Below the pieces are notes generated by a model. That model made no database searches. It saw only the letters and a list, made by a program, of their open reading frames with translations, and was not told the origin of the DNA. The position numbers and the translations under genes are program-made. DNA of 33,761 bases from contig PMJK01000181.1 of assembly GCA_003158505.1 (NCBI GenBank), positions 1-33,761 of the forward strand. Reading direction: 5' to 3'. This DNA comes from Holophagaceae bacterium (lineage in GTDB: Bacteria > Acidobacteriota > Holophagae > Holophagales > Holophagaceae). Of this stretch, positions 17,042 to 20,473 are shown piece by piece (the stretch's first letter is position 1; each line of letters opens with the position of its first letter).

Positions 17042-17959
17042 TCAGGGGTCCGCTGAGGACCCAGGGTCATCTGGGGCCCACTGCTTCCGGAGACGGTGAA
17101 GCAGGAGACGTAGCTCCAGCAGCAGGGGTCGGGCCGCCAGGAAGCACAGGAAGCCTGCGAGCGGCACCGTCAGCTTGAAGCCGATGTGCTTGAACCCGAG
17201 GGCCCCTACCACGCCGCCGCTGAGGAAGGACACGAGGATCAGCAGCAGGAGGATCAGCTTCGGGCGGTTGGCGAGGATTCGGGCCCGGCCGCGCCGCTGA
17301 TGGACGTTCACGTAGGTGAGCCGGCTCAGTTCAATGCCGATGTCCGTGATCGTGCCCGTCAGGTGCGTGGTGCGGACCGCGGCGCCGGAGATGATCGAGG
17401 TCACCGCGTTGTGCATGCCCATGATGAAGCAGAGCAGCATCACGGTCATGGGGAGTGTGAACTCCATTTCCTCCTGAAGCCGGTTCCCCATGAAGCCGAA
17501 TACCAGCATGAAGGCAGCTTCGACCACCAGGGTCAGCGCGTAGCGGCTGCGCATGCGGCGACGCTGCCCAAAGCTGATGAGGGTGGAACAGAAAAAGGCC
17601 CCGCCCAGGAAGCTCAACATCATGGCCAGGGCCGCGAGGGCCGTGGTGAGGTCCCCCTCGGCCAGTACATCCGCCATGGAGGAGACCACACCTGTCATGT
17701 GGGAGGTGTAGTGGCCCACCGCCAGGAACCCGCCCGCATTCACCGCCCCCGCCACGAAGGCCATGGCCCAGGCTAGTTGGCGGTTGAGGCTCTCCGATCG
17801 CAAGGCGCCCTCGCGCACCAGCAGCTTCTCCTGGATGGGCAGGCTGGCCACGGCCGACTCGATCACCGCCTGGAGCTGCTGCGTGTCCAGCCGGTTCCTG
17901 AGCAGCCTCCGCAGGTAGCGGGCCACGATCAGCTGGATGGCACGGGGGATGCGGCGCAT
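17042..17959 (-). CDS. DUF1275 (YoaK-like) family membrane protein
   Basis: AWAMAFVAGAVNAGGFLAVGHYTSHMTGVVSSMADVL and AVRTTHLTGTITDIGIEL typical of DUF1275. Confidence 0.88.
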   Translation of the reverse strand: MRRIPRAIQLIVARYLRRLLRNRLDTQQLQAVIESAVASLPIQEKLLVREGALRSESLNRQLAWAMAFVAGAVNAGGFLAVGHYTSHMTGVVSSMADVLAEGDLTTALAALAMMLSFLGGAFFCSTLISFGQRRRMRSRYALTLVVEAAFMLVFGFMGNRLQEEMEFTLPMTVMLLCFIMGMHNAVTSIISGAAVRTTHLTGTITDIGIELSRLTYVNVHQRRGRARILANRPKLILLLLILVSFLSGGVVGALGFKHIGFKLTVPLAGFLCFLAARPLLLELRLLLHRLRKQWAPDDPGSSADP

Positions 17960-18010
17960 GGATGCTTCAGTCTACTGACTCCGGTCCCCTGAATTTATGC
18001 CGAAGGCTAA

Positions 18011-18039
18011 CTCCAGACGCGCCATCGGCGCGTCTGGAG
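18011..18039. repeat. 13-bp perfect palindrome with 3-nt loop upstream of ansA
   Basis: CTCCAGACGCGCC-ATC-GGCGCGTCTGGAG. Confidence 0.9.
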
Positions 18040-18044
18040 CCCGG

Positions 18045-18050
18045 TAGACT
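18045..18050 (+). promoter_or_regulatory. Candidate -10 element of ansA
   Basis: TAGACT ending 6 nt before ATG 18057; same hexamer recurs upstream of other genes in the window. Confidence 0.4.
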
Positions 18051-18056
18051 GCTCCC

Positions 18057-19064
18057 ATGCGCAAAATCCTGCTCCTCCACACCGGCGGCACCCTGGGCAT
18101 GGCGCCCAGCGGAGAACCCGCCTCCCTGGCGCCGGGGCCCTTCCTCGAGCTCCTGCTGGAGCAGGTACCCGAACTGGGTCAGCTCGCGGAACTGGCAGTG
18201 GAGGTGCCCTACAACCAGGATTCCGCCTGCCTCGAACCCGCGAACATCCTGGCTTTGGCCCGAAGGGTGCGAGACGCGGCCAGGGACTTCGATGGATTCG
18301 TCATCATCCACGGCACCGACACCATGGCCTTCACGGCCTCCTGCCTCGGGTTCCTGCTGCCGGACCTCGGCAAGCCGGTGGTGCTCACGGGCAGCCAAAG
18401 ACCGCTTGCGTTTGTGCGCAGCGACGCCCGCAGCAACCTCGTCAACGCCGTGGACCTGGCCTGTCGTGCCATCCCCGAGGTCGGCATCTGTTTCGGCACC
18501 CACTGGCTGCGCGGCGTAGCCACCGACAAGCTCAGTGTCAGCCAGTTCGAGGCCTTCGAGAGTCCCAACCTGGCGCCCCTGGCCGAGATCGGTGCCGAGA
18601 TCCGCCTGCATCCGGAGGTGGGCCAGTTCCTTCGCCAGGTGCCCGCGGGCCTTGGAGGCGATCTCGATCTGAACATCCACACGGTCACGCCCCATCCGGG
18701 CATGGCCTGGTTCCCCGCGCCTGCAGGCGCGAAGGCCGTGCTCATCCAGGCCTTCGGCGCGGGCAATCTGCCCATGGACCGGGCCGACCTGGTGGCCTTC
18801 CTGGAGGACTGCCAGCTCCGCCGCTTGCCCGTGGTGGTCACCTCCCAGTGCGCCTATGGGGGCGTCGATCTCTCCGCCTACGAACTCGGACGGAAGATCG
18901 AGGAGATGGACGGCATTTCCGGTGGCCTGCACACCCGCTGGACCGCCCTGGCGAAGCTGGGCCTGGTGCTGGGTGCCGGCGGCGGGATCGCGGAGACACG
19001 GGAGGCATTCAGGATCGCCTGGGCCGGCGAGCCGATGCCCGAGGGTGCTTGGCCGCAAGCTTGA
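18057..19064 (+). CDS. ansA: L-asparaginase (type I-like)
   Basis: KILLLHTGGTLGM, FVIIHGTDTMAFTASCLGFLL, VLTGSQRPL, TSQCAYGGVDLSAYELGRK. Confidence 0.92.
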   Translation: MRKILLLHTGGTLGMAPSGEPASLAPGPFLELLLEQVPELGQLAELAVEVPYNQDSACLEPANILALARRVRDAARDFDGFVIIHGTDTMAFTASCLGFLLPDLGKPVVLTGSQRPLAFVRSDARSNLVNAVDLACRAIPEVGICFGTHWLRGVATDKLSVSQFEAFESPNLAPLAEIGAEIRLHPEVGQFLRQVPAGLGGDLDLNIHTVTPHPGMAWFPAPAGAKAVLIQAFGAGNLPMDRADLVAFLEDCQLRRLPVVVTSQCAYGGVDLSAYELGRKIEEMDGISGGLHTRWTALAKLGLVLGAGGGIAETREAFRIAWAGEPMPEGAWPQA

Positions 19065-19096
19065 TGGGTGCGGACCGTCCCATCCCACACGCAGGG

Positions 19097-19118
19097 CGCC
19101 GGGGCATGCGCCCCGGCG
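19097..19118 (+). terminator. 9-bp GC-rich hairpin after ansA, possible terminator
   Basis: CGCCGGGGC-ATGC-GCCCCGGCG; no clear U-tract. Confidence 0.35.
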
Positions 19119-19143
19119 TGAGAAAACAGAAAGCAGTTCAAAA

Positions 19144-19172
19144 CTCCAAACCCGCCTGTGGCGGGTTTGGAG
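19144..19172. repeat. 13-bp perfect palindrome with 3-nt loop upstream of serS
   Basis: CTCCAAACCCGCC-TGT-GGCGGGTTTGGAG; covaries with the palindrome at 18011-18039. Confidence 0.9.
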
Positions 19173-19177
19173 CCAGG

Positions 19178-19183
19178 TAGAAT
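19178..19183 (+). promoter_or_regulatory. Candidate -10 element of serS
   Basis: TAGAAT, 20 bp from palindrome centre, identical spacing to ansA. Confidence 0.4.
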
Positions 19184-19204
19184 AAAGGTTTCCTGGAACC
19201 GACC

Positions 19205-20473
19205 ATGCTTGACGCCAACCTCCTCCGCAACGACCTCGACGCCGTGGCGGCCCGACTCTCCGGGCGGGGCTATACCTTGGACCGGGATCGCTACCAGGAG
19301 CTGGATGCCCGCCGCCGGAGCATCCTGCAGGAGGCTGAGGCCCTGAAGGCCGAGCGCAACCGCGTGAGCGACGAGGTGGGCCGCCTCAAGCGGGCCAAGG
19401 AGAACGCGGATTCCCTCATTGCCCAGCAGCGTGAGGTCGGCGACCAGCTCAAGGCGCTTGAATTAGCCGAGCGCGAGATCGAGGCGGCCTTCAAGGATTT
19501 CCTCGCGGGCCTACCCAATCCGCCCCACGCAAGCGTGCCCGTCGGCCGCGATGAGCACGCCAACGTCGAAATCAAATGCTGGGGCCAGATTCCCGCGATC
19601 GAGAAGCCCTTGGATCACGTGGAGTTGGGAGCACGACTCGGGATTTTAGATGTGGAGCGGGCCCCAAAATTAAGCGGCGCACGGTTCTCTGTTCTCTTGG
19701 GTTTGGGGGCGAAGCTTGAACGGGCTCTAGCTCAATTCATGCTCGACCAACACGAGAAGGTTGGGTACCAGGAGGTCATTCCTCCTTATCTTGTCAACGC
19801 TGACAGCATGTTCGGGACAGGCCAGCTTCCGAAGTTTGAGCAGGACCTGTTTAAAGTGCCTCATGGCGATTCATTCCTCTATCTGATCCCTACGGCCGAA
19901 GTCCCGCTGACCAACCTGTTCCGAAATGAAATCCTCGAACTAGAAGCATTGCCCACGCGGCTCTGTGCTTTGACGCCCTGCTTCCGCAGCGAGGCCGGCA
20001 GCTATGGCAAGGACACCAAGGGCATCATCCGCCAGCACCAGTTCCACAAGGTGGAGCTCGTGGCATTCGCGGCACCGGACCAAGCGGAAGCGGAGTTGGA
20101 GCGGCTTACCTCAAACGCCGAGGCCATCCTGGAGGCTCTGGAACTGCCCTACCGCCGGGTCCTGCTCTGCACCGGCGACATGGGCTTCAGCAGCCAGAAA
20201 ACCTACGACCTGGAAGTGTGGCTGCCCTCCCAGAACACCTACCGGGAGATCAGTTCCTGCAGCTGGTTCGGCGACTTCCAGGCCCGGCGCGCCAACATCC
20301 GTTTCCGCCCGAAGGACGGCAAGCCCGGCTTCCTGCATACCCTCAACGGCAGCGGCCTGGCCGTGGGACGGACCTGGGTGGCTGTCCTCGAGAACTACCA
20401 GCAGCCCGATGGGAGCATTGTCGTACCGGAGGTGCTGCGACCCTACCTGAAGGGTCTCGAGGTGATCCGCTGA
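19205..20473 (+). CDS. serS: Seryl-tRNA synthetase
   Basis: MLDANLLRNDLDAVAARLSGRGY N-terminal arm; class II motifs TPCFRSEAGSYGKDTKGIIRQHQFHKVEL and NGSGLAVGRTWVAVLENYQQPDGSIVVPEVLRPYL. Confidence 0.97.
   Translation: MLDANLLRNDLDAVAARLSGRGYTLDRDRYQELDARRRSILQEAEALKAERNRVSDEVGRLKRAKENADSLIAQQREVGDQLKALELAEREIEAAFKDFLAGLPNPPHASVPVGRDEHANVEIKCWGQIPAIEKPLDHVELGARLGILDVERAPKLSGARFSVLLGLGAKLERALAQFMLDQHEKVGYQEVIPPYLVNADSMFGTGQLPKFEQDLFKVPHGDSFLYLIPTAEVPLTNLFRNEILELEALPTRLCALTPCFRSEAGSYGKDTKGIIRQHQFHKVELVAFAAPDQAEAELERLTSNAEAILEALELPYRRVLLCTGDMGFSSQKTYDLEVWLPSQNTYREISSCSWFGDFQARRANIRFRPKDGKPGFLHTLNGSGLAVGRTWVAVLENYQQPDGSIVVPEVLRPYLKGLEVIR

Follow-up and report, generated by a model that had tools for sequence, protein, structure and literature searches.

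The window, that is to say, the whole stretch of 33,761 nucleotides that was analysed, contains 2 perfect dyads of the same geometry, one upstream of ansA (copy 1) and one between ansA and serS (copy 2), each followed by a −10-like hexamer. Comparison with further genomes of the genus indicates that the dyad is a real conserved structure, most likely an ordinary gene-end hairpin in an unusually tight promoter-side position, accompanied by a transplanted copy. On the sequence evidence given below, copy 2 is probably a U-tract-poor 3′-end or terminator hairpin of ansA that abuts the serS promoter, and copy 1 is probably its relocated copy. The locus would be a worked case, from a phylum that has received little study, in which compensated changes preserve a gene-end hairpin beside the −10 box of the next gene, and in which a whole hairpin-plus-promoter block has apparently been copied to another gene. 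A further lesson is that palindromes located upstream of promoters are not necessarily operators.

Organization of the ansA–serS locus

The closest named relatives of the SerS protein encoded in the window are from the Holophagaceae (83%), and the window comes from a genus within this family (Acidobacteriota). The comparison set comprised 46 further genomes of this genus and the genome of the window itself (G000). The features of the locus are as follows:

17042–17959, minus strand: divergent DUF1275 gene (Pfam PF06912, E = 5.8e-40)
17969–17974, minus strand: TAGACT, which by its sequence may serve the DUF1275 gene as a −10 box; relatives have a comparable TAGACT/TACACT
17999–18007, plus strand: mini-palindrome GCCGAAGGC, 3 nt 5′ of copy 1, common to the serS-side cassettes of G049, G052, G059, and G004
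18011–18039, plus strand: dyad copy 1 (13-bp arms, 3-nt loop), between the divergent DUF1275 gene and ansA; covariance model match of 67.4 bits
18045–18050, plus strand: TAGACT, probable −10 box of ansA, starting 12 bp before the ATG (leaderless spacing)
18057–19064, plus strand: ansA, type I asparaginase-like, 335 aa (NCBIfam TIGR00519, E = 1.2e-57, under the curated cut-off)
19097–19118, plus strand: second hairpin in the ansA–serS gap (CGCCGGGG-CATG..), GC-rich, also in G013 and G009
19144–19172, plus strand: dyad copy 2, 80 nt past the ansA stop codon; covariance model match of 60.7 bits; orthologues in 22 other genomes of the genus
19178–19183, plus strand: TAGAAT, probably the serS −10 box, conserved whether the dyad is present or not
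19187–19197, plus strand: serS leader GGTTTCC(G/T)GGA, conserved in the alignment of serS upstream regions
19205–20473, plus strand: serS, serine–tRNA ligase (TIGR00414, 525.7 bits, above the cut-off of 301.65)

Copy 1 reads CTCCAGACGCGCC-ATC-GGCGCGTCTGGAG and copy 2 reads CTCCAAACCCGCC-TGT-GGCGGGTTTGGAG. The copies differ at arm positions 6 and 9, and both differences are compensated on the opposite arm. The dyads are followed by a 5-nt spacer, CCCGG (copy 1) or CCAGG (copy 2), and then by TAGACT or TAGAAT, so that the hexamer sits 20 bp downstream of the dyad centre in both copies. A direct sequence check agreed with the preliminary description of the locus on the dyad sequences, their coordinates, the shared arms, stem and loop geometry, the 2 compensated differences, the flank C-C-(C/A)-GGTAGA-(C/A)-T, the centre-to-hexamer distance, and the location of copy 1 between divergent genes. 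RNA folding compared with dinucleotide shuffles gave z-scores of −5.75 for copy 1 and −5.27 for copy 2. Perfect stems of at least 10 bp are scarce, with only 26 found in sampled stretches of the same genome totalling 378 kb, and few of these reach 13 bp.

Conservation of the dyad upstream of serS and its linkage to ansA

The serS upstream regions of 43 genomes were compared, and the dyads were counted in a hand-checked set, the automatic dyad finder having also called unrelated hairpins. The serS-side dyad is present in 23 of the 43 genomes, and its arms come in 15 different sequences, of which 12 are perfectly paired; most arms measure 13 or 14 bp, and the total length is 28 to 31. In an alignment of 16 sequences, two-sided changes occur at 6 of the 13 pairs; 14 such cells were counted compared with 3.6 in shuffles, which ignore relatedness, none of 500 shuffles was as high, and sliding the partners abolished the signal. 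It is therefore the dyad and not its sequence that is conserved, as had been proposed from the 2 copies in the window. The most constant part of the dyad is its CTCC/GGAG feet. The mismatched cells (15 G-U and 10 A-C) exhibit no RNA-strand preference.

The serS-side dyad is exclusively linked to the 3′ end of ansA. All 23 dyads lie after an ansA 3′ end, 22 of them with ansA directly upstream and one (G047) with only a stump of the gene. Among 17 dyad-less genomes, ansA is adjacent in 9 and not in 8, with 2 decayed cases left aside; that is to say, the dyad occurs in none of the 8 genomes that lack ansA at this position (Fisher P = 0.002, uncorrected, with G047 counted against the linkage and phylogeny ignored). 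In 3 genomes with another gene before serS (G019, G044, and G007), this position holds an unlike hairpin whose 3′ side is T-rich. In G047, the stump encodes the ansA C-terminus (EIWPQA*) just before the serS dyad (G047:C66:4160-4460, L252), and a full-length ansA lies 5.5 kb off, which suggests that an insertion or duplication took place at the serS-dyad spot.

The hexamers as probable −10 boxes

The preliminary description had called the hexamers −10-like, and the comparison strengthens this reading. Before serS, TA.A.T is invariant at a fixed distance in 42 genomes, whether these carry the dyad or not; the dyad-less genomes keep the hexamer, so the −10 box does not need the dyad. The leader just past it (GGTTTCCGGGA) is also strongly conserved across the genus, dyad-less genomes included. 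Most genomes of the genus have TARACT or TAGGGT before ansA, at a constant distance from the ATG. In the window, the first T of this TANNNT motif (18045) lies 12 bp before the ATG (18057), the spacing reported for leaderless genes in bacteria (PMC3160421), although a dyad upstream is foreign to that class. The genome-wide count of leaderless-like TARAMT motifs was no higher than that of the control (16 versus 17), so the assignment depends on the conservation seen at ansA and serS, by which TAGACT and TAGAAT (TARAMT) are very probably −10 boxes. No conserved −35 motif was found in the serS-upstream comparison, and no TTGACA-type sigma-70 consensus was found around the dyads.

The distance between dyad and hexamer is 5 nt nearly always at both loci (4 in G042 and G051, 6 in G009), whereas the distance from ansA to the dyad varies between genomes. 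This contrast favours some tie of the dyad to the promoter, and a pure terminator does not account for the near-constancy. If the fixed spacing is functional, the finding becomes weightier. The spacing is also a point in favour of an operator, in which a dimeric protein would bind CTCC...GGAG over the −35 region and control both serS and ansA. Such an operator would be consistent with the constancy of the feet, the missing −35 motif, and the confinement of strong full-length model matches to these 2 genes (described below). We nevertheless consider it unlikely: (i) the middles of the arms vary yet stay paired, and with 15 arm sequences in 23 genomes and a dyad length of 28 to 31, neither the conserved half-site letters nor the fixed separation of a dimeric operator were found; (ii) an arm longer by 1 bp per side (14 instead of 13) shifts the half-sites by 2 bp; (iii) nearly half of the genomes are without the dyad and still keep the promoter; and (iv) CTCC...GGAG hairpins also occur at the ends of unrelated genes. 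The suggestion of a repressor operator over −35 is thus disfavoured by the covariation, the variable arm length, and the persistence of the −10 box without the dyad. A related proposal, to which we give still less weight, is that the dyad is a promoter part acting by its shape at −35, as a cruciform or through a structure-reading protein, that coordinates serS and ansA under selection on pairing.

A probable gene-end hairpin without a U-tract

The terminator reading had been set aside in the preliminary description on the grounds that copy 1 lies between divergent genes. This holds for copy 1 (the DUF1275 gene is on the minus strand and ansA on the plus strand), but the ansA 3′ end invariably precedes copy 2 and its orthologues, which have the look of gene-end hairpins. 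The genome of the window contains some 13 to 16 hairpins starting with CTCC(A). Its CTCC...GGAG hairpins lie mostly within about 60 nt past stop codons, several of them between convergent genes and one directly 3′ of a tRNA-like sequence, the surrounding genes having been called by a simple GC-by-codon-position script. The gene-end hairpin is therefore the natural class for copy 2. CTCC feet were found on 4 of 80 intergenic hairpins from 3 genome samples compared with 0.31 expected from a flat 1-in-256 chance that ignores base composition, a small but real preference. A genus-specific terminator signature was considered and rejected, the surplus being small and failing to reach significance in G059 or G048 individually.

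Both dyads form the stable GC-rich hairpin of an intrinsic terminator. A U-tract is absent after both stems, no terminator-like site was found in 17900–19300, and Rfam 15 gave no match at the gathering score within the window. Copy 2 and its 22 orthologues have the position of a U-less 3′-end hairpin, co-oriented with the gene and soon after its stop codon, and copy 1 does not. In Streptomyces clavuligerus, hairpin 3′ ends without a U-tract ("HS-U-lack") have been described, which are read as I-shaped terminators or trimmed Rho-terminated ends (PMC8269248), and U-trails were judged unnecessary in a survey of 13 genomes (PMC8355165). Copy 2 resembles such ends of GC-rich bacteria (PMC8269248) in its strong GC-rich stem-loop past a stop codon and in the missing U-rich tail; it differs in that the dyad abuts the −10 box of the next gene and that its CTCC/GGAG feet recur. 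It shares with canonical intrinsic terminators a hairpin past the stop codon, with the GC stem closed by AAAA/TTTT in G014, G024, and G041. By contrast, no U-tract follows the stem, and the sequence next to these A/T pairs is GGAG, itself part of the pairing.

According to the gene-end reading of copy 2, the ansA mRNA would fold a hairpin of 13 to 14 bp at its 3′ end, which may end transcription or fix and protect the mRNA 3′ end, and serS would be transcribed separately from the −10 box 4 to 6 bp downstream. Selection on pairing would then let the arm letters change as compensated pairs. This reading is weakened by the missing U-tract and canonical terminator, the near-fixed spacing to the −10 box, and the lack of strand preference among mismatches.

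Distribution of the dyad-plus-hexamer unit

The strict unit (CTCCA...TGGAG, 5 nt, TARAMT) occurs in 13 copies in 26 genomes of the genus, and every copy precedes serS or ansA. The genome of the window has only 2 copies, both in the window. It contains 2 further CTCCA N19 TGGAG dyads of exactly this geometry, with arms fully or almost fully paired (C16:723 and C133:11166), and the hexamer is absent after both. When 41 genomes were searched with a covariance model derived from 16 of the copies, strong full-length matches appeared at serS and ansA only; the other matches were mostly weak and covered the dyad only, with weaker full-length matches away from the locus at G015:C45 and G052:C117. The upstream half, GCCGAAGGC-N3-CTCCAGACGCGCC, had no convincing copy elsewhere in 47 genomes, near-matches appearing only at 2 to 3 mismatches, and the hexamer context TGGAGCCNGGTAGA with 2 mismatches exhibited no surplus over a reversed control (46+43 versus 46+42).

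The strict pattern, the covariance model, and the upstream-half pattern having yielded no convincing further sites, a dispersed cassette was rejected, and with full units at ansA and serS only, the dispersed regulatory palindrome proposed earlier finds no support. The dyad shares with REP/BIME or MITE repeats a short palindrome in more than one copy; unlike them, it is not dispersed, its arm sequence is not conserved, and it occupies only 2 orthologous positions. It could in principle be a mobile or self-correcting palindrome (either REP/MITE-like or a quasi-palindrome that template switching has perfected), whose pairing would be kept by mutation instead of selection. The paired changes without strand asymmetry and the apparently copied state of copy 1 are compatible with this, but the confinement of the unit and of its upstream half, and the persistence of serS-position dyads in divergent genomes whereas copy 1 loosens (described below), render it very improbable.

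Copy 1 and its probable origin

Copy 1 lies before ansA in G000, G005, G013, and G050 and, in degenerate form, in G012, a subclade of 5 genomes; most ansA promoters in the genus are without such a dyad. Its block, including GCCGAAGGC and the hexamer, agrees with the G049 serS cassette at 50 of the 59 positions and is closer to this cassette than to copy 2 of its own genome, whereas the average for ansA promoters without the dyad is 15. This difference makes a copying event likely. Copy 1 is thus likely to be a copied hairpin-plus-promoter block, although the event, its donor, and its direction are what we infer from these agreements. Of the mobile promoter cassette suggested previously, the resemblance of copy 1 to a copied promoter block stands, and the searches described above did not find copies at many unrelated sites. 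Under the preferred gene-end reading, a block of GCCGAAGGC, 3 nt, the dyad, 5 nt, and TARACT would have been relocated before ansA in the five-genome subclade, where only the −10 box has an evident use and would yield a leaderless ansA mRNA.

The copy 1 dyad is still perfect in G000 and is decaying in 3 of the 5 genomes. Unpaired cells amount to 17% at copy 1 compared with 7% at serS (Mann-Whitney P = 0.04, uncorrected, 5 versus 23 sequences), which would fit a hairpin without a role before ansA. This decay also bears on the possibility that the dyad serves as a boundary, in DNA or in RNA, that insulates the promoter from neighbouring transcription at both loci and, at copy 1, separates divergent promoters. 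The dyad does lie immediately 5′ of the −10 box at both loci, and copy 1 is located between divergent TAGACT boxes. However, copy 1 is not known to receive any incoming transcript, and most ansA promoters do without such a dyad; with the decay, these points make a boundary rather unlikely, a little more so than the operator.

Minor observations

On C16 of the window's genome (L001:722-796), 2 CTCC...GGAG hairpins lie between convergent moeA-like and Crp/Fnr-like regulator genes (names read by eye from the translations). The inner feet of this pair can instead pair mutually through a middle palindrome (L247: GGAGATAGGAAGAGATCTTCTCCTATCTCC), and these mutually exclusive alternative foldings are found in 5 genomes (L001, L245, L247, L248, and L249).

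In addition, the SerS matches at G018:C16:367482-369011 and G023:C130:5196-6725 each consist of 2 pieces within one 518-aa frame, which suggests an in-frame insertion of approximately 85 to 90 residues near residues 224–241 in the SerS proteins of these 2 genomes.
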